Origin: Daphnia pulex
Taxonomy: Eukaryota; Arthropoda; Branchiopoda; Diplostraca; Daphniidae
Length of the DNA stretch: 64,000 bases
Assembly: GCF_021134715.1 (NCBI RefSeq)
Contig: NC_060025.1
Location: 7,006,001-7,070,000, forward strand
Reading direction: 5' to 3'
Positions 1 to 29,900 of this stretch are shown here, piece after piece. The first letter of the stretch is position 1; each line of letters starts with the position of its first letter. The notes under the pieces were generated by a model that was given only the letters and a program-made list of their open reading frames with translations, searched no databases and was not told the origin of the DNA. The position numbers and the translations under genes were made by a program.

Positions 1-1790
1 AAGCTAACGACCCGGAATATCAAGCCGAAGGGTACACTGATAAATTGATAAACCAAATTTCTGATAGCTAAATTTCATTATTTTGATTAAATGTAGACTG
101 GCTAAACATTTGGCAGAGAACGGAATACGTTGTCCACAATGCCGTTTCCAGTTTTCACTAACTCGCGGAGGATGCATGCACTTCACGTGCACTCAGTGCA
201 AATGGGGTTGGTTTATACGTCCATCAAGTCAATGAAAATTTTAATAATTTGTTACAAAATCCCGCAACAGAATTTTGCTCTGGGTGCGACCGGCAGTTTT
301 TAATGGGTTCCCGGTGTGGAGTTGGACCATTTTGTGACAAACTTGGATTGCACGCCCATCACCCTCGAAATTGTCTATTCTATCTACGAGACAAGGAGCC
401 ACGGGATCTCCAAAAGCTTTTGACGGTATGGTGGAAGCTATATATCGCTGAGAACCATTTGAGTTTACGCAAAATATTTGTATTTTTCATTGCCGCTTGG
501 TTTATTAGGAACATGGAGTTCCATTCATGACTGAGCCACATGATTCAACAGAAGGACCTAAACAGTGCGTTGTCCAACTGCAACGAGAAACATCAGAAGG
601 ATTGGTCGATGATGTCTGTTCCAACGAAGTTAAAGAAGGGCAGGCTGGACTTTGCAGGTGAGACGCTAATAGCTGGGCAAGTTGAATTACATAAGAAAGA
701 AAATTTTACTGGTGGGAGAGGATGTTTTCTGAAATAAAATCTCTGCGGGTGATTGGACTGAAATAAGGCTCCATTATGTGGAATACCTTGCGGCCTTGAT
801 CACGAAAAACGATGTGGATCCCTTGGATATCTTTAGCTCAGATGAACTTGAAACGTTATTACAAACGGCCAGCATTCGGCGGCCATCTAGGAATCTTCCA
901 CCGAACGCACCTCTTGTGTCATACCGCCGTAGACTACTTGAGGTATCACTGAAAGGAACTGATCCTTTTTCTTTTTGTTCTTTTTTCTCTTTTTCTTTGT
1001 TGTTGCCTGGAAATGCACGCGGCCCCTGCCGATTTATTGCTGATTTACTGTGTGCGCCTTCCTTCGCTTGCGGCCCTGCACTCCTGCAGTCAGCACTACA
1101 TAGAATACTTGGTCCAACTCATTAACTTCAAAAAGATCGACCCGTTGAGCGTGTTCGAGGGTTCGGAATTGATTGCCCAGTTACGCCGTTCTGCTATCGA
1201 CATACCTGAGCGGTTAGAGAATGAGTCTGACGCCGAATTCTACGGCCGTTGTGCTCAGGTAAACTAATTTGACATTTTCCCTGTATAGCGATGTAATATA
1301 ACAGAAACTATTGTGAATGAGAAACACTGTCGTGGACAGATTAGATGGGCTGGGTATTTGTATCAAACACCGACTAATTTTTTAATAAGGTTAACTCGTA
1401 GCTATCTTGTGTGCTTTTTTTTCTTTTAACGATCGCCCACACGCATGTTTTGATTTCGATTTTTATAACTCAAAAAACAAAGCTTGCTTTTCTCGACCTT
1501 CATCTGCCAATAACAATTTTTATCCGCCTGGAAAGAAAACATTTCTCCGTGATATTCTATATCTATCAGAGTTGTATCAAACAATTAATGAATGAGTCGT
1601 ATGTGTGAGGCACTTGCGCCAATGCATTAAAAACGAGTCATGCTAGTATATGGCCACTGATTTTGGCTTGTAGGAATTAATCTAGAAGTGTCAATCAATT
1701 CATCATTTACTATCATCTTTTTCCTTTGATGATTCACTGTTATTTGGTTTGGTGAAACAGGTGATCGAAGAGCAGCTGCCACTAAATTGA
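1..1790 (+). CDS. LUBEL: C-terminal part of a LUBEL/HOIP (RNF31-type) linear ubiquitin E3 ligase, 5' end outside the window
   Basis: This is an RBR-type E3 ligase that, in its family, builds Met1-linked (linear) ubiquitin chains in NF-kB/immune signalling. Exons I assemble: 1-31, 97-206, 271-425, 509-657, then either 768-942 or 1090-1258, then 1761-1790. All junctions are GT-AG and in frame. The first two exons read NDPEYQAEG then [15 protein letters not shown], and continue into RING2 with [12 protein letters not shown], whose GGC cysteine is the family's catalytic thioester residue. The next exon gives FCSGC and [12 protein letters not shown], closely matching human HOIP. The LDD (linear chain determining domain) follows, and the protein ends IEEQLPLN. 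The N-terminal RING1, IBR and ubiquitin-binding parts lie upstream of the window. The family call is very secure; the exon choice is inferred from phases. Confidence 0.92.
768..942 (+). other. LUBEL alternative LDD exon A
   Basis: This 175-base exon encodes [19 protein letters not shown] and onward to RRLLE. It starts in phase 2 (the previous exon ends TGC AG) and ends in phase 0 at a GAG|GT donor. It aligns with the HYKEYLVSLI region of the human HOIP LDD. It can splice directly to the terminal exon at 1761, giving [14 protein letters not shown]. Confidence 0.8.
1090..1258 (+). other. LUBEL alternative LDD exon B
   Basis: This 169-base exon encodes [19 protein letters not shown] and ends GRCAQ. 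It is homologous to exon A, with the same entry phase (2) and exit phase (0), and is preceded by a pyrimidine-rich tract ending CTCCTGCAG. Including both exons adds 344 bases and shifts the frame, so they should be used one at a time. Confidence 0.8.
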
Positions 1791-1898: not shown

Positions 1899-1904
1899 AA
1901 TAAA
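1899..1904 (+). terminator. Probable polyadenylation signal of LUBEL
   Basis: An AATAAA hexamer lies about 110 bases after the LUBEL stop codon. Its position fits a 3' UTR end, but no transcript evidence was available. Confidence 0.45.
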
Positions 1905-6000: not shown

Positions 6001-6479
6001 GTTAGCAGCACCCAAGTGAAATAATGCTCCATGTACTTTAGTTAGTTTATGTGATTACTTAATTTCATGATGCATGTGCCAAACACCCACATAGCAATGA
6101 CAAATGGTACAGCCACTCTTGGAAAATTTGGTTTAGCAATGGGTATTTGAGGTCGGATTGTTGGCAAGGCTTGAGTATCATCTGGAAAAGGAGAGCTTCT
6201 GAGTTCACTGACATCATTGATTTTCTCTAGAAAATTTTTTTTTTTTATAATTCAGAAAGAATATGTAATGAATGGAACTTGTTAATAAAAGATGAATTAT
6301 TAAGATACCAGTTTACCTGTTTGGGAAGGGATTTTCCATTCATTTGATTTATCATCTTCTTTCGTCTCTTTTGTTTCAGTTGTTAAAGCATTACCTACAG
6401 TCTGCTGTGATGTTTGGCAATAATGAAATATGAAAAACATTGAGAATAAAATATAACAAGAGGCTTTTAATTTCCTCAT
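3070..6479 (-). CDS. NHE: Na+/H+ exchanger (SLC9A/NHE family), complete
   Basis: This protein exchanges Na+ for H+ across a membrane. Fifteen exons assemble in frame: 6317-6479, 6059-6226, 5709-5972, 5435-5631, 5126-5382, 4838-5055, 4573-4775, 4422-4511, 4288-4358, 4000-4212, 3800-3920, 3572-3697, 3413-3503, 3247-3333, 3070-3182. They give about 793 residues. The N-terminus has a hydrophobic signal-like stretch ([14 protein letters not shown]). Family landmarks are VVPESC, the conserved [17 protein letters not shown] with downstream [22 protein letters not shown], and [12 protein letters not shown]. The ND motif of transport (GESLLND) is intact. A hydrophilic regulatory tail follows, ending [10 protein letters not shown] and RPKEFFHDI. 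It most resembles plasma-membrane NHE1/2/3-type exchangers; the exact subtype is not resolved. Confidence 0.92.
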
Positions 6480-6982
6480 TGTAAATTGAATGCAGAAAGT
6501 TTGTTCTAGTGAAATTCACAAGATTAAAGCGCTTGTGTTGTTGTCTTAGGAAATCTGCAAAACGCCGAAGGATTTACAAGCTGGAATCATTTTAGCGAAT
6601 TCTCCATCGACATTGACTAGTTACATGCACAAAATTGTGAATTTAAACTAGCGAGGATTAAACAAAAAAAAAATAACATAACGAACATGTCGATCAGTAA
6701 CAGACAGTGTCATCAATGTTTTGTTTTGTTGTTCTGCACATTAAGCCATAGCCATCTATGGGTAGGGAACTGTACTTTGACAAATTGATCGACGGAAATA
6801 ATACAATGACGACCGATCTGCCAACAACCGATCCACCAAGTCACCAACTACTCCTGCTGAACATTCAGAGAATTCGACCCTAGATCGCATCTATCAATCA
6901 CACAAGATTCTAACACTTATTTTTTAAATTCCAATGCTTCTCTTTAGTCATGGTTACCATATCTTAATGCTCGGCTCCATGT
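6480..6982. other. Intergenic: NHE upstream region and 3' flank of LRR gene A
   Basis: About 500 bases of AT-rich sequence. The part next to 6480 should hold the promoter and 5' UTR of the exchanger. Beside the LRR gene, 6910-6980 retains a decayed equivalent of the last codons still present in the sister LRR gene (see the finding on the LRR gene A C-terminus). No further gene is seen. Confidence 0.4.
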
Positions 6983-8671
6983 TCACATCATTTCGACAGT
7001 ATTCAACAAAATTTCGGACAATGGATTCGATTCGTTCAGGAAGAAATCGATGCCTTTCTGGCTCACATTAGAACAACCGTGAAACTTTAACTTGGTCAAA
7101 TACTTGAAACTGTTTTTAGTGCAAACTTCCTCAATCATCTGGTCATCAAGCGTAAAACAATTTTCTATGGAAACCACTGTAAGAGCAGGGGAAGACAAAA
7201 GCAATAGCAACAATTTGCGAGAAATAGTAAATCGAGAAAAATAAGAATACAGAGAGATTTCTTCCAGCATCCTTAACGGAAATACTGCCTTTGGAGAACA
7301 AAGAGAAGAGTGGACGCAATCATCTACCACATGTTCAGGAGTATTTTCCCCATCGGTACTTTTTATAACAAGTCGCAAACGGCGAACATTCGGGCAGCAC
7401 TCGATGATAAGAGAGACTTCTATACTCGTTAATTCCATCCTTAAATATAACTCTTCTAGTGTAGGGCCACGAGCTTGTAGAAGAGGAATTACTCCGCCAC
7501 GAACACCGATTGACGGGAAGGAAATTTCAAGATTTTTTAATAGTTTAAGTTCTCGAAAACCTGAAATAAAAATGCATTTTTAATTGCCAAACACATATGA
7601 ATACCATCATTGCACATTTTTCTCACCTAATAACTCCTCATTAGTAAATCTGTCATCGCATACATTTATGAAAAGATCGACGAGCGACGGGCACATGTCA
7701 ACCATCAAGGAAACGGTGCCTTTTTTATAGGGGACTTCGTATGGCATTGACATAGACAACTTGGTCAAGGAATATTTTTTTGATTCTCTGGTGTCATTAC
7801 GAATTTCATGAAAAACTTTGAGGATATCAGACTCATTGTTGCAATTTAATTCTTTCAACTCTGGTAAATGTTCGATAGCAAATCGAATTCCGATATGAGT
7901 CACGTCCGTTCTCCTAACTGATAATTTGTGAAGGGAACTTTGACCTTTGCAAAACACTTTAACTACGGAATCGGTCACACCAGGGCAGCAATCAACTAGC
8001 AACTCCCTTAAAAAAATGAAGTGGACATAAAGAAAGTTTTCTTAATTCATTAAAGTAGACCCTATACCTTAGTTTTGGTTTATCAGTAAATCCAAGATTC
8101 CTCATGCAACTAGCACCAGCATAAAATGTGCCAGATAAATCAAGGATCTGCAGGTGTTCGAAAAGCTGCAAAATGGGGGCAAAAGTATTTTCTAGTAGAT
8201 TTGATGTGAAAAAACTTATCTTCAGTGTAGTGAGTTGCTGTAAATGAAAAAGTTGTTCATTAATTAACTTCTATATAAAAATAACGAATTAATTTTTACC
8301 GAACATCTGACTGATGCTAAACGCACGATGTGAAGACTGTCAGTGATATGCATATTACTTTGTGAAAAATCCAGAATTTTCAAATGTGGGTTCAGGAGCA
8401 ATTCAAACATCTCTTTTTTTTTACCCCAGTGGTTTCTTTTGACCCATTCAAGAGTCATGTACTCCAGACAATGTGAAGCTGTGTGTAGTCAAAATGGCAT
8501 TATAAAATAAAAGCACACAATTATTCCAAAGAAAAGACACTCACGCAGAAGGTAAAAGAGGCTGGAAACGTGCACTGAACTACGCGATGCCGTCCATTTC
8601 TCCATGTTATCGACGATACTGTCCATACACAATTCTGACAGAGATTTGTGGTACCATTTCGGCTGAGGCAT
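6983..8671 (-). CDS. Leucine-rich repeat protein, tandem copy A
   Basis: Five exons (8545-8671, 8300-8478, 8068-8237, 7627-8006, 6983-7560) give about 477 residues. The N-terminus MPQPKWYHKSLSELCMDSIV resembles the short helical SLxxLC motif found ahead of LRRs in substrate-receptor proteins such as ZYG11; that comparison is inference. The rest is a run of irregular LRRs, for example LKILDFSQSNMHITDSL, LTKLKFHGCSNVSQKGIDFF and SPALTVVSIENCF, so a protein-binding solenoid is likely. The copy-B gene at 9458-11235 shares the same exon structure. A one-base deletion near the end relative to copy B replaces the last ~26 residues with LNTVEMM, so this copy may be in early decay. Confidence 0.75.
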
Positions 8672-9457
8672 GTTGAAGATAACGGTTAGAGAACACAGTG
8701 AAGGACTTCAGTGAAAACCAAGACACATACAAAACGAACATCAACGATCACACTAGAGGTTTTTCTAAATGTTTCTCTCCGCCCCTGATCTCTAACAGAG
8801 TGACAGTGAGAGTGAAGCGTGCCATAAAGGCGCGAACGGAATAATTGCATTGAGGGCGAGATGCACTTTTGCCAGATTTCATTTATAACTCGCGTGATTC
8901 GGTAAAATTAGAAAAAAACGAACTAAATTTCCTCTCAAAAAAGAAAAAAGTTAATTGCAAATAATGTTCAACAGCAAATAATAAAAAATAATGAACATCC
9001 ATTCCTTCTCGTGTCCAGTCTCACAGACTAAGATCACCCGTGCGTTGTTGAAAATGATGCAAATATTTTTTGATCACTTAGAAAAAGAAGAATTTAGTTT
9101 AATATCCAAATTACTTAAACTTGTTTTAAAATTAAAGCAAACTTACAAGTTATTGCATATAATGTCCTAATTGAATAAATGTAGTGTAGGATTTTTTAAG
9201 CTTATTTAGACACCCAATTGTAAAAAGGTGTGGAATGAAGTTCAATTGTAAAATGAAACATGACACATATTGAATTCCGTGACTATATAACCTTGACTCG
9301 TGTACACCAGATAAAGAATCTTATGAGAGTTCCAGGTGAGGATTTTATGAAAGCATACAGTATAAACATAAGGAAATAAGTGTTTGCTGTTTGACAGGAA
9401 AAAAGACGAAAGTTTAAAAAAAAACATTGGATCACATTGTCTTACTGTAATCACCTC
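8672..9457. other. Intergenic between the LRR genes, with a shared upstream block at 8820-9030
   Basis: Bases 8820-9030 (GGCGCGAA..ATTGCATTGA..CCAGATTT..ATAACTCG..CTTCTCGTGTCCAGTCTCACAG) match the sequence upstream of LRR copy B. There, the match is split between 11384-11472 and 15393-15506. The block probably carries the promoter of copy A plus the edge of the duplicated unit. From 9031 to 9457 the sequence is AT-rich with nothing recognised. Confidence 0.6.
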
Positions 9458-11235
9458 TTAATCTTCATCATTCCACTTGACATTCCAATGTTTCTCTTGA
9501 GCCATGGTTTTCATGTGCCCAAGGTTCACATTTCCACAGTCTTCTACAGAAATTTCGTCCAAAGGATTCGTTTCGTTCAGGAAGAAATCAATGCCTTTCT
9601 GGCTCACATTAGAACAACCGTACAACCTTAACTTCGTCAAATACTTGAAACTGTTTTTAGCGCATGCTTCCTCAATGATCTGGTCATCAAGCGTGAAACT
9701 ATTATATATGGAAACCGCTGTAAGAGCAGGGGAAGATAAAAGCAAAAGTAAGAGTTTGCGTGAAATAGCATATGAAAAATAAGAAGACAGAGAGATGTCT
9801 TCCAGCATCCTTAACGGAAATACTTTCTTTGAGGAACAAAGAGATGAGTGGACGCCATCATGTACCACCGGTTCGGGAGTATCCAGCAGATCGGTTCTTT
9901 CTAAAATAAGTAGCAACCGGCGAATGTTCGGGCAGCTCTCAATGATGAGATCGACTTCTTCACTCGTTACTTGCATCGATAAATATAATTCTTCAAGTAA
10001 AAGGCCACGAGCTTGTAGAAGAGGAATTACTCCGCCACGAATAGAGATGATTGACGGTAGGAAGGATATCTGAATTCCGAAATGTTTTAGTTGTTGAAGT
10101 TTCCGAAAACCTGAAATAAAATTGCGTTTAGTTTCTCTACCCATACGAATACCATCATTTCAGATTTTTCTCACCTAATAACTCCTCATCCGTAAATCCT
10201 TCGTCGTTTACTTGTAAGAAAACATCAACTTCAACAAGCGACGGACACATGTCAACCATCAATGAAACGCTGCCTTTCTTATAGGAGACTTCGTCTGGCG
10301 GAGTCCACATAAACCACTTGGTCAAAGAATATTTTTTTGATTCTCTGGTTTCTTTACGAATTCTACGAAACGCTCTTAGGATATCAGAATCATCGTCGCA
10401 ATTTAATTCTTTCAGCTCTGGTAAATGTTCGATAGCAAATCGAATTCCGGAATGAGTCACTTCCGTTCGATTAACTGATAATTTCTGAAGGGAACTTTGA
10501 CCGTTGCAGAAAACTTGCATTGCAGAATCAGTCACGCCAGGGCACGAATTAACTTGCAATTCCCTTGAAAAAAAATTAAGTGGACATTAAGAAAGTTTAT
10601 TAATTTCGTTAAAGTAGACCCTACCTTAGTTTTGGTTTATCAGTTAATCCAAGATTGATCATGCAACTAGCACCGTAAATTGTGTCACATAAATCAAGGA
10701 TCTGCAGGTGTTCGAAAAGCTGCAACATGGGAGTAAAAGTATCTTCTACTTGATATGATGGCAATTTATTGAAAAAACCCATCTTCAGTGCAGTGAGTTG
10801 CTGTAATTGCAAAAAGTTGTTCGTTAATTCATTTCTATATAAAAATGACGAATTAATTTTTACCGAACATCTGACCGATGCTAAACGCACGATGTGAAGA
10901 CTGTCAGTGATATGCATATTCCATTTTGATAAATCCAGAATTTTCAAATGTGGGTTCAGGAGCAATTCAAACATCTCTTTTTTTTTACCCCAGTGGTTTC
11001 TTTTGACCCATTCAAGAGTCATGTACTCCAGACAATGTGAAGCTGTGTGTAGTCAAAATGGCATTATAAAATAAAAGCACACAATTATTCCAAAGAAAAG
11101 ACACTCACGCAGAAGGTAAAAGAGGCTGGAAACGTGCACTGAACTACGCGATGCCGTCCATTTCTCCATGTTATCGACGATACTGTCCATACACAATTCT
11201 GCCAGAGATTTGTGGTACCATTTCGGCTGAGGCAT
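9458..11235 (-). CDS. Leucine-rich repeat protein, tandem copy B
   Basis: Five exons (11109-11235, 10864-11042, 10625-10800, 10175-10563, 9458-10110) give about 507 residues. The protein starts MPQPKWYHKSLAELCMDSIV and carries the same LRR series as copy A, including LHIVRLASVRCS, LTALKMGFFNKLPS, LTKLRLYGCSNVSQKGIDFF and VEDCGNVNLGHM. It ends KWNDED. The intron after SVRCS happens to be nearly open here but carries a GT-AG pair in both genes, so I treat it as an intron. No catalytic domain is seen. A role as an LRR adaptor or receptor is likely, but no specific function can be named. Its upstream region is interrupted by the insertion that begins at 11473. Confidence 0.78.
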
Positions 11236-23926: not shown

Positions 23927-26900
23927 CTAAACAGCTGACACTTGAGCTTCGTCATCGTCTGCAGACACAAACAAACAAAAGATTAGGGCAAACGTTAATT
24001 TTAAATAAGGCGACGGTAACATTTTTTCCACAACAGCCACCTCTCAAACAGGGTGGGATAAATCAAAGTCTTTCAAAAAAATATTAAAAAGACGCTTCAG
24101 AGTTGTGTCAAGTCTTTTTAGCTGGGCATGGCCAAATCACCCACCGCATCTGAGAAACCGGATGTTGAAGCAATTAAGACGTACCGTCTTCTTCTTCAGG
24201 ATCGGAACTGTAGTAGCCCGCCGTGACTCCTTCGTGGGAATGCGCCCGACTCAGCCGAGCCATACGGGCCATCTGGGCCGCTACATTGTAGTCGGGAGGT
24301 CGCCGGGCTCTTGGCGGAAGTTCTCGGGGGATAATGGTCCCTGCGAAAAAAAAAATGAATCGGGAAAAATGAACACAAAAATGCAAAAACAAGTGTAAAA
24401 AAAAGACACAAGACGGACGGAAAGCTCGCGCGCGCGGATGCCGGGTAACACACACAAATAGGCCATTTATAAAAAGAAGCATGCAGAAAACAACAACACC
24501 TGAAGCCTATATACACCATTTTACCTCTCCTCTTTAAAACTACCGGTTGGAGAGGTAGAGCGGGCAAGACCCGAATTGCGTTTTTCATGTAACTGGCCCT
24601 GGCCGGCTTGTTGATTGTTAGATCTTGTGTCACTACCGTAGGATCGTTAGAAACCACAACCTCGGCTACAAACGTAAAAGTCAATCACACCCAAAAAAAC
24701 ACACCATTATATAGCAAATGAACCATTTCCTCATGCATGGATGGACATCGTACTGTAAGTACTGTACTGTAAACTACTCAAGGTGCTAGGGAAGAGGTGG
24801 GGACAACGGACAAGGGGAGCATACCTTGGGTTCCATGCGGGTATAAAGGTACCCTTGTTCGAGGTGCTACAGGAGGTGATTCCGTCGTTCCAGCGTGGGG
24901 ATGATGAAGCAAGTGGGTGTGGCCGCCTCCGGAGACGACTTCCGTCGAGTTGTTGCTGGAATGCGAGTTGAACTGGGTGCAGTAACTGGCGTCGATGCCG
25001 TCGGCGCCGAGGCCGATGCCCAGACCGATGCCCAGCGTCAATCCCAGTCCCAGCGGTTGATGCAAAGATCCGCTTCCGCCGCCGCTGGTGCCGCTTCCTC
25101 CGCCGCCGCTGTCACTCGACGTGGCAGAGCCGGACATGTGCGACTTGCGCATGGCCGCCAAATTGGCCAGACTCGTCACGCTGCTGCTCTCGGCGTTCAA
25201 GTCGACGGGCAGAGCGGCGTCCGAGTGGGAACGCTCGTGTGAACGTTCGTGTGGCGTCGTCCTGACGGGCGGCGGTTGGGGTGGCACTCCGGGCACACGC
25301 CGGTTCAATCCAGGCGATGGAGAAGGGGAATGTTGTTGAAGTAGTCCCGATCCTGGAAGAGGTAGAGCCATCGAGACGTTGCAGGAGCCCATGGGTCGAT
25401 TGGGCGCCTGGTACGGTCTCGTTTTGCTGGGCTCACTCAGAGCCAACATTTTGCGCACAGATTGTGGGCTGGCAGCTCCTACAATTTCAAAATAAAAATG
25501 TGTCAATGGACAACCCAAACAACAAATTCAGGATTTAAAAAATTCTTCGTACCAAATTTGGGTCCTTGTTGGCCTCGGCGACTCTCGCTGGTGGCGCTGG
25601 TCGAACTGGCCGTGCTGGTGGTCGAGAGCGTCGGACTCGGGTGACGTTTACGGACGTGATGATTGACTGCGCTGAGGACCAATGCCCCGGTCGCCCGGCT
25701 TTCAGATCCTCCGCCCCCTCCAGAGCCGCCAGAACTGCCCGAATTGGATGACGTGGCCGCCAATGGATTGCCTCCGGCTGGTGGTTCGACTTCCACCGAC
25801 ATGTGTCGCAGTTGTTCCTCGTCCGTTAGCACCTTGAGAAAAAGGAATGTTAATTATTATCATCATCACCCAAAGAAGGTGACAAAAACCAGCAAAATAC
25901 CTTCATGTTGCTAAGGTAAGCCTTGACACGCCGGACCATCTGGGCTTCCTCGAACATTTTCTTCGAGTTTGGCATGGCGGCCGACTTCTTGCGTCTCTTG
26001 ACCGTGGCCGAGGAGAGGTGGTGGCGGTCGTGATGAACAGCCCCGCCGGCCATTCCCGATCCGGTCGTTAACTGATTCATGGCCATCATGGCGGCAGAAG
26101 GAGGTTGGCCGCCCAATTGCAGCATCGTGAACAGATCGTAGGGCGCCGAGCACATGTGCGACAAGGAGCGCACCTCTTTGGCGATCATGCGCAGTTTCTC
26201 GAAATTGATCAGCCCGTCCACCCGAGTGTCATTGCCGAGATGAATGAACGTCAAATCCTTCTTGACAACGGGGAAAAATGGAATCTGTCGCCAGGGGAAA
26301 CGGAGGGGGGAAACACACAAATATTTTGCTTTACTCAAATGAACACTGACGGGAGAAACCCGCAGGCCCAGAAAATACTCCGTGCGGATGCGGTAATTTT
26401 TTTTTGCGGAATGGAATAAATTTTATACCATGGGCGGCTGAACGTGCTCGCTGTTGATGAGATTTCGGTATTTGGACATGTTACGAGACGGGTCCATCAG
26501 ATCCTGCATGTCTCGGAAGAGACGTTGATATTTTCCCGGTAGTTTCTCCCACGTCTGTTTCAGTCGGGAAACGGCTCCGTGACCAAGACCGGAGATGATG
26601 TTGAACATGGAATTGAAATTCTTGCACTCTTTGCATTGGCGAGCCACTTTGATGAACTGTTTGATAGCGCGCATCCGTCGCATCAGATTGTGTTCCGCAC
26701 AAATTTCCGTCACAACCCAAAACATTTCCCGATTAACCAACTGTCAAAACAAAAAAATGCGTTAAAAAACGGATGAAGAGTGAGAAGCACAGATCAAAAT
26801 GGCTCACCTCGCTGAATTGGGAGAGATGAGGCGTTCCGTATTTGCTGCGCAGCTGGAAGAGGTCGTCGACATACTCTGTGCTTTCGATTTGAGTGAAAAT

Positions 26901-29900
26901 AGCGAAATCTTGTAACGTGAGCTGGACGGCCACTTCAACCGCGTTCAGGTGGAGGAATTGGACTTGAGATTGCAGCATCAGCTCGCCGGCCAATTCATCC
27001 GGCACCAGAGTTTCGGTGCTGTGATTGTTCTTGAGGTAATAGCGACTGGCCACGCCGATCCGCTCGGCCAAATTCTGGAGCTGGTCGGGCAACCGGCGCT
27101 GCTTGATGATGCCACTGTCCGTCACCGTCACCTCGCAAAGGCTGTAGTTGGACGACGGATCCGTGATTTGGAATTCTTGGAGGGACAGCATCACCACTTC
27201 CCTGGCAGTTGTTTCCTGCGCAAATAAAAATTCACGAAATTGACATTTTTCCAATCGATCCAGCTAATGACGGATGAGTCGCTTTTACCTTGTGGATAAG
27301 CAGGTACTTTGACGACTGATCGGCTTTGAAAACCTTGAGGGCGTGTTCGGGGTAATCGGCCCGTGGATCATCGTAGCATATGCTGGTCAAATCCGGATTG
27401 CTGTGACTCATGTACATTTGGTTGACGCTGCTGCCAGTCAGGGCTGAACCGACGGCGCCAGATTGTGCGGCACTCGAATCCGCCGAGCCAGTTGTCGAGC
27501 CGTACATGACTTCATCGCCGACCACTTCCCTGTGTGTTTGTGAAACAAGTTGATGGTTAATCTAAAACATCCGGGCGCCACTTATAAGAGTCATCGTCAA
27601 AATTACGTACCCCGGTTTGCCTCTGGCCATCTGATTGACCTTGCCCCAAATTTGCTTCAATTTGGTTTTGTGGCCAAGTGTCATGAAACCGCCGCTGCCT
27701 CCTTGGCTCTTGGAGCCAATTAGGGCCGCCTTGTCTTTACAAGGCGACGGGCACGTGTGGCCCGCAGAGCCGCTGTCGGAATGAACGTCGGAAGACGACC
27801 CGCCAAGCATTTTGTTGCTGGAAGACGATTTCGACTCGAGTTTCTTACCCCGAGGCCGCGGAGAATTATCAGGGGTGTTTAACATTTCTGAATGAATAAA
27901 AAAATGTGAATGAAAATTTCCCATAAAAATATAGACGATCTGTAATATACCTTTAAACGCGTGGAGATTGGATCGAACGGTGATGGAAAGATGAGTGGAA
28001 GCCCGGAGAATCTCCAGTGCGCGTACGTGGCTGACGTGTTCGAAGCTCTGACCGTTCACTTCGAGGATCTGATCACCTCGTTTGAGTCCAACTTCTTCGG
28101 CTTTGGAACCCTTTTCCACTTTGGAAACGAAGATGCCGAATCCGCGCTCGAATCCGCCCAAGATGCTGAAATGGAGAATTTCATCGCGACTGGGCCGGGT
28201 CAACGTCACCGTCCTGGATCGAGCTTTGGCCGCGCTGGCGAAATCCAGCATCCTCAACTATTGAATCGAATTTTTCAAAAAAATATTTTTCAAAAATTGT
28301 CCCAACATCAGAAAGAAAATGGAATAAATAATCTTACGTGGCTTTGCATCTTGGATTGTTCCAGTAGACACTCGAAGGTTTCGAGGAACTCCATCATGCA
28401 GGGATCCGTTTCAAAGTCGGTAAAATGGTTGTTGACCCATAGGAGAACGACTCGCGTCACTTTATCTCGTACGGTCGGATCGTTAAAACTATCGCGTGAC
28501 ACGAAAGAGTGGATTGAAATGAATGAGCCTCGATGGGACGACAAAGAATAATGGGCGTTACCATTCGAGCAGCTGGCTGCAGACAATCAAGGGACTTTCG
28601 ATAAAGATCCGATGAGTCAAAAGGAAATCTTCGACGTAACTGGGATCGCCAGACGAGTCTTCCAACAAGTGGGACATTAATCGTTCCACCGTTCCCTGCG
28701 TTTTTGGTAAAAAAGAAAAGCCAATTGATGAGAGGTTGTGTTTAAAAAAGAAAAATAAGGAAAAAGGTTATAAATAGCTCATCAATTAAACAAGTGGTCG
28801 ATATCGATCCAATTGTTGTAGGACCTTTTTAATTAGGTTGTAAAAAGAAATAGGAAAGCCACTCTATTATACTCTACTAGGGCTGCTATCTGTCCCACTC
28901 TTGTGCTATCGATGTGCTCTCCACTCACCTTGATGACGATGTGAGAGCGCTGCGAGGAGGATGCTGCGCCAATTTGGGCCCGCTGTTCCGTCACCAAGAC
29001 AACGCGTCCATTCTCTTCGTGCCGGCGCGTATTCTCCTCTCCTTTGTGCAAGATGCTAAAGTAATCGGTTTGCGTGATGCAAACAAATTGACAGTCATCG
29101 CATTTGGTCCGCATTACGCCCCGGTGATACAATTTGTCCATGGTCGGCGTTATCCCGAAACTAAAAACAACAAAATGACAAAATTTTCAAATTTCAAATT
29201 CAGGTTGAGGGAAATGAGTTTTTTTCGTCTTCTTGTCCCCAGATGGGAGGATGGAAAGATTGACTGACCTGTCGCCAAGGTGTAAGGCTCGACCAGGCTC
29301 GCCGGAGGCTCCGCCATCAATTTCGACATGGCCGTTAATAATAACGGACCATGAATCAAGTTCTTCGCCGTCGTTCATGACAACTGTGCCGGCTTTTTCG
29401 ACGACGGCGAACACCATCACCCGGCAAAGGGCCCGTCTCACCGACAGAGTCATATTGGCGAATGCCCTGAGGTGTTGCGTGAATTCGAGCAGGATTTCGA
29501 TATCGTCATCCGTCCGATCGGATGGATCTTTTTCTAGACACTCTCGAACCGTGTCCCGCACAGTTAGGCTCTACAAAAAAGGGAAAAAAGAAAAAATTAT
29601 GAAGAAAATTGATTGAGGAAAAAGTGGGGCCGAGTCACGAAAATTGGTTCCATCGAGCCAAAGTCACGGACGGCAATCAAGAAATGAGATGGAAAATGAA
29701 TCATTACGTCGATGCTCTCGGCTAGGTCTTCTTCCTCGTCGCTGTCGACGATCGATTCCATCAAGCCGGTAAGGTCAACCTCGTCGCCGTCGTGATCAAC
29801 ACCGTCGACGCCAACGCCCTCCGCATCCTGCCATTCATCCAATTGCAATTAGTTTCCCTTTTTTCTTGTTTTTCTTTTTTAAAAAATCTCTCAAAAAGAA

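Follow-up and report, generated by a model that had tools for sequence, protein, structure and literature searches.

Can a single gene supply a HOIP-type ubiquitin ligase with two alternative endings of its LDD, the domain that makes these ligases build Met1-linked chains? This question is raised by a stretch of 64,000 nucleotides of Daphnia pulex DNA (bases 7006001-7070000 of contig 9, forward strand; hereafter the window). Its first bases contain the 3′ part of a gene related to human HOIP, the arthropod orthologue of which is named LUBEL. Here, two neighbouring exons, termed A and B, appear to encode the same segment of the LDD, and we asked whether both could serve one gene.

Gene identity and the two homologous exons

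The gene begins upstream of the window. Taking the base before the window as position 0, we read exons at about -815..-618, -554..-276, -213..-124 and -51..31, followed by the exons listed in Table 1, that is, three further constant exons, either A or B, and the terminal exon T. As judged by reading frame and splice sites, the spliced exons encode an open RING1-IBR-RING2-LDD protein. The form containing exon B matches human HOIP (5edv_A) at 5.4e-95 and lies above the Pfam cut-off for PF18091 (1.4e-28), IBR_1 (1.6e-23) and IBR (2.9e-12), the zf-RING_2 match of its RING1 being below the cut-off. Each of the two RBR-LDD forms shares 157 of 364 aligned residues with human HOIP. Moreover, an open frame that lies 2.5-2.8 kb 5′ of the window encodes the HOIP UBA pair (PF16678, 1.2e-26), and its position suggests that it is part of the same transcript. 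The succession of RBR and LDD, the catalytic Cys and His and the upstream UBA pair indicate that the gene encodes a predicted ligase of the HOIP/LUBEL type.

For residue numbers we added 692 to the position in 5edv_A, which places C885, H887, R935 and D936 on the expected letters. When 18 HOIP positions were compared, C871, C874, C885, H887, C890, C893, C916, R935 and D936 as well as C969, D983, C986, C998, H1001, Y1002 and L1063 were found to be identical in both forms. HOIP Q1055 corresponds to Q in B and to E in A, and K1056 is replaced by V in both forms. The candidate poly(A) signal given in Table 1 is the single AATAAA in 1201-2600; an ATTAAA is located at 1626 inside the last intron.

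Table 1. Features of the HOIP/LUBEL-type gene in the window (position 1 is the first base of the window; HOIP numbering refers to the human protein)
Feature	Position	Strand	Basis or remark
End of constant exon	1..31	+	exon begins 52 bases before the window; splice sites, frame
Constant exon, RING2 with catalytic Cys C885 (codon 173-175) and His H887 (codon 179-181)	97..206	+	5edv_A alignment
Constant exon, rest of RING2, start of LDD, R935/D936 (codons 387-392)	271..425	+	5edv_A alignment
Constant exon X, LDD with C969, D983, C986, C998; two codon bases left over	509..657	+	
Alternative exon A, HOIP 999-1055; probable Zn ligand H1001 (codon 772-774)	768..942	+	
Alternative exon B, HOIP 999-1055; probable Zn ligand H1001 (codon 1094-1096)	1090..1258	+	
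Shared terminal coding exon T, VIEEQLPLN and stop, HOIP from 1056	1761..1790	+	
AATAAA, candidate poly(A) signal 3′ of the shared stop	1899..1904	+	pattern only

The coordinates, phases and joins of A and B proposed in the first-pass annotation were correct to the base when splice sites and frames were recomputed. Exon X comprises 149 nt, A 175 nt and B 169 nt; A and B differ by 6 nt, both leave a remainder of one when divided by three, and they encode 58 and 56 residues, respectively, plus a split codon. Their assignment to the HOIP LDD was likewise borne out, since each exon alone exceeds the cut-off of 23 bits for PF18091, the HOIP C-terminal domain (A, 2.2e-7 and 31.3 bits; B, 5e-9 and 36.6 bits), with matches confined to the initial 32-33 residues per exon, as the profile does not extend further. 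Compared directly, A and B match at 7e-11. Placed between X and the last exon, A yields 59.9 bits and B 59.5 bits to human HOIP, scores that derive in part from the common exon X. Searches of the whole genome (133,188,837 bases, 13 contigs) returned, besides X, A and B themselves, a single decayed copy of A, and no third alternative exon among the best candidates scored. Contig 13 of this genome is probably mitochondrial, since its full-length COX1 match contains nine internal TGA codons. In the bacterial, archaeal and viral contig collections no relatives of the pair were found, as expected there.

Thus, A and B are neighbouring, homologous, similar in length, equal in phase and compatible in their splice sites. 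A duplicated exon inherits its phase, and the matching phase of A and B is therefore no independent evidence. A published predictor of exon pairs uses similar length, splice sites and frame, and homology (PMC3228551). As read directly from the sequence, A and B agree with each of these features.

Exon combinations, splice sites and exclusion

All six possible joins are of the GT-AG type, and no minor-class donor was noticed by eye among them. The combinations X-A-T and X-B-T remain open through to one common stop. In line with the earlier claim that inclusion of both exons breaks the frame, X-A-B-T runs into a stop codon at 1123-1125, 33 nt into B and 133 nt upstream of the last junction. When both are skipped (X-T), the codon right after the junction is a stop. 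As joint inclusion and joint skipping both truncate the protein and are thus unproductive, a complete LDD requires exactly one of the two exons. A stop codon 133 nt before the last junction is the usual setting for nonsense-mediated decay, to which the double-inclusion message should consequently be open.

A join of 942 to 1090 had been named beforehand as a finding that would speak against exclusivity. It would not do so, because it leads to the early stop and because the classification of human exon pairs as mutually exclusive tolerates frame-breaking joins (PMC5740500). The same source counts 377 human mutually exclusive clusters (60%) with lengths not divisible by three, and tandem pairs with frame-based exclusion are well known (PMC5740500, PMC3228551). 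Two LDD versions with one exon each are the best reading of the sequence, the switch between them having the standing of a prediction.

The splice sites of the two exons differ in appearance. Exon A is preceded by the acceptor AAG with 6 pyrimidines in 17 positions, and exon B by GCAG with 11 in 17. Among the ten acceptors that belong to the 3′ portion of the gene, nine carry C or T at -3, that of A being the only one without, and the pyrimidine count of A is the lowest, with 8-13 at the other nine. As the acceptor of A is the poorest-looking of the ten, B probably represents the default and A the regulated exon; A could also be used only rarely. Separate last exons for A and B were considered and rejected, as reading past the donors gave nothing recognisably domain-like and the shared exon fits the end of HOIP.

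The intron between A and B measures 147 nt, that between A and T 818 nt, and the seven upstream introns 62-88 nt. Steric exclusion by a short intron is unlikely, because the A-B intron is longer than these seven. Pairing between introns as an exclusion device received no support, as the best duplexes were often matched by shuffled sequences: the duplex of the X-A with the A-B intron was equalled or beaten by 59 of 60 shuffles, that of the A-B with the B-T intron by 47 of 60, and that of the X-A with the B-T intron by 9 of 60. These shuffles were crude in that two-base blocks were moved and dinucleotide counts not exactly kept. A raw listing of 650-1800 contains 10 short inverted pairs of 9-23 nt. 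Exclusion is probably brought about by regulators together with the frame.

Divergence, decayed copies and competing explanations

In a three-way alignment with human HOIP comprising 56 gap-free columns, A and B are identical at 18 positions, and each of them is identical to the human sequence at 20; a two-sequence alignment of A and B contains 19 identical residues. The columns divide into 13 shared by all three sequences, 7 shared by A and human only, 7 by B and human only, 5 by A and B only, and 24 by none. The distance between A and B is thus about as large as that of either exon to human HOIP, suggesting a very old duplication or fast divergence thereafter. Over the first 41 codons, 48 of 123 nucleotides and 6 of 41 third positions are identical, corresponding to a saturated pS of 0.99 and a pN of 0.49. 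Since synonymous sites are saturated while residues of HOIP are kept, neither exon looks like a relic.

Neutral drift was simulated with A as an unconstrained copy of B, using uniform substitution and no indels. After drift to the observed identity of 48/123, at least 13 of the 20 human-matching residues were kept in none of 20000 runs, and the frame stayed open in 1322 of 20000. At 60% identity, at least 13 of 20 residues were kept in 0 of 5000 runs, and at 80% in 1715 of 5000. Both tests were passed in 0 of 5000 runs at 50%, 0 of 5000 at 60%, 19 of 5000 at 70% and 413 of 5000 at 80%. The constraint argument depends on an old divergence, and the saturated synonymous sites support such an age.

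Copies of parts of the gene are present elsewhere in the genome. The segment -1125..532 recurs with 96.0% identity at contig 9:5807690-5809350, on the same strand and 1.2 Mb away, and 638..953 recurs with 98.4% identity at 5809376-5809691, likewise on the same strand. The copy as a whole (5807690-5809691) carries an in-frame TGA in the RING2 exon, a 5-nt loss and a net loss of about 80 nt in X, which rules it out as a second working gene. It ends 11 bases 3′ of exon A and has A, the splice sites of which are unchanged, and not B. This copy is a decayed segmental duplicate and says nothing on the use of exon A. Just past it, at contig 9:5811210-5811657, lies an inverted match (88% identity, about 440 bases) to 6378-6811 of the window, possibly a repeat element common to both places.

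On contig 2 (1459696-1460286, minus strand), 1352-1402 (79%) and 1753-1908 (71%) of the window recur, which correspond to parts of the last intron and to the terminal exon along with sequence 3′ of it. As no RBR or LDD piece was found in the 20 kb examined there, this fragment was dismissed as a second gene; it may be an older relic of the gene's 3′ end, or this end was captured on contig 2.

As the best explanation, to which we assign a probability of roughly 0.78, we propose an old tandem exon duplication in the HOIP/LUBEL gene that has been kept as a mutually exclusive pair. From the exons, their frames, their homology and the retained residues we infer the following course. One internal exon of the gene would have been duplicated in tandem long ago, and splicing would connect exon X with either A or B, and this exon in turn with the last exon that both share. 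The outcome would be two full-length ligases that are identical except in the final third of the LDD, with exclusivity at the protein level enforced by the frame, as both exons or neither would yield a truncated LDD. B with its ordinary acceptor would be the default, A would need an activator or a cell-type cue, and the exchange would adjust stability, rate or the binding of partners such as CYLD. What speaks against a maintained pair is that the acceptor of A looks weak, that intron pairing gave no sign of enforced exclusion, that neutral drift at 70-80% identity can pass both tests and that duplicates of this gene do go dead.

One alternative is that a single exon, most likely B, is in use, with A being an abandoned duplicate that still resembles coding sequence. 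The weak-looking AAG acceptor of A would be consistent with it, as would the decayed copies, which show that the gene duplicates and decays. However, A keeps 13 of the 20 residues common to B and human and 7 human residues besides; drift preserved 13 of 20 in no run at the observed identity or at 60%, even though it often did so at 80%. Moreover, exon A is open, has GT-AG ends and is in the right phase, and we consider its abandonment improbable. A little less probable still is a dosage switch, in which A would mainly give rise to the early-stop message containing A and B, and LUBEL would be lowered via decay. The location of the stop in X-A-B-T relative to the last junction would permit this, and joining of A to B may be easy, as the intron between them is far shorter than that between A and T; yet a poison exon need not keep an LDD-like sequence in frame with the last exon, as A does. 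The near-identical partial copy on the same contig could finally suggest an assembly error or a recent, meaningless local duplication. This appears highly improbable, because the low nucleotide identity of A and B over the 41 codons is neither that of a recent nor that of a technical duplicate, and because exon A occurs twice in the assembly with unchanged splice sites.

The swapped segment and its possible meaning

The exchange of A and B, if the exons form a mutually exclusive pair, concerns the end of the helical LDD base together with what is probably the last zinc ligand. C969, C986, C998 and H1001 are conserved, and we take them to be the second zinc site of the LDD. Three residues of this probable site are constant, and H1001 is contributed by the swapped exon and present in A as well as in B. 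RING2-LDD binds four zinc ions (PMC12441119).

The first-pass annotation had connected the exchange with the positioning of acceptor ubiquitin by the LDD, which holds only in part. R935 and D936, for which contacts with Glu16 and Thr14 of the acceptor ubiquitin are reported (PMC7125101) and which have been mutated in fly LUBEL (PMC5090701), are encoded by the constant exon 271-425. An indirect effect on acceptor placement is possible, because the helical LDD base, together with the first zinc finger, is needed for it (PMC5413910). A beta-hairpin of the LDD helps to hold the tail of the donor ubiquitin (PMC5135002, PMC5413910) and would be located in the constant exon X, between C969 and C986, and the extreme C-terminus at S1066 is far from both ubiquitins (PMC12441119). 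Since the contact residues are constant and the swap affects the end of the helical base, a change in stability, rate or partners appears likelier than a change in linkage. Both forms probably make Met1 chains, as the catalytic centre, the acceptor pair and the four zinc-site residues are kept, and would differ in stability, surface or partners. CYLD, which binds the RBR-LDD region of fly LUBEL in vitro (PMC5413910), is one candidate partner for the swapped LDD end.

With human HOIP/RNF31 (PDB 5edv, 4ljo) the Daphnia protein shares RING1, IBR, RING2 and LDD, C885/H887, R935/D936 and the probable zinc residues; in contrast, no two-version LDD turned up for the human protein among the open-licence matches listed. 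Drosophila LUBEL (CG11321), which is likewise the HOIP orthologue of an arthropod and contains UBA as well as RBR-LDD regions, differs in that its isoforms are described as having or lacking the RBR region (PMC5090701, PMC6462001). Four isoforms contain the RBR, and the length of the fly protein is given as 2892 residues in one paper and 2902 in another. Homologous neighbouring exons of similar length and the same phase are present in Dscam and muscle myosin heavy chain (PMC3228551), and U2AF1 exons 3/Ab are mutually exclusive tandem exons of the same kind. Unlike these examples, the Daphnia pair is situated in the linkage-determining domain of a ubiquitin ligase and is predicted from sequence.

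We found no report of such a pair in the LDD among the matches listed for open-licence papers on LUBEL, HOIP, RNF31 or CG11321. Words beginning with 'splice' or 'exon' do not occur in the main text of the LUBEL papers checked, and 'splicing' occurs in PMC6462001. CG11321 is not named in PMC3303723, which deals with mutually exclusive exons in 15 insects, and among the matches listed for Daphnia LUBEL none addresses this gene by title. The A and B isoforms may already stand in public gene annotations.

Paired LDD endings in one gene would constitute a ready-made structure-function experiment, indicating which parts of the LDD are free to change in evolution against a constant background of catalytic and acceptor-binding parts. 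In the fly, the counterpart of this arthropod gene works without the mammalian subunits HOIL-1L and SHARPIN (PMC5413910), and the pair would also provide the gene with a means of regulation. More speculatively, and in our estimate rather unlikely, the two endings might differ in Met1 rate or in partners such as CYLD, in which case cells would determine how much chain is made through the exon they choose, and not through LUBAC co-subunits.

Elsewhere in the window, 6983-11052 on the minus strand contains two similar sets of open frames that look leucine-rich-repeat-like by eye and apparently reflect a tandem gene duplication; the three frames tested, out of five, had no Pfam match at 0.001. On the same strand, 26733-28257 comprises a PDZ exon and an exon with an RA match above and a RasGEF match below the cut-off, reminiscent of a Rap-GEF, and 19814-20266 matches 2-hydroxyacid dehydrogenase and appears CtBP-like by eye.
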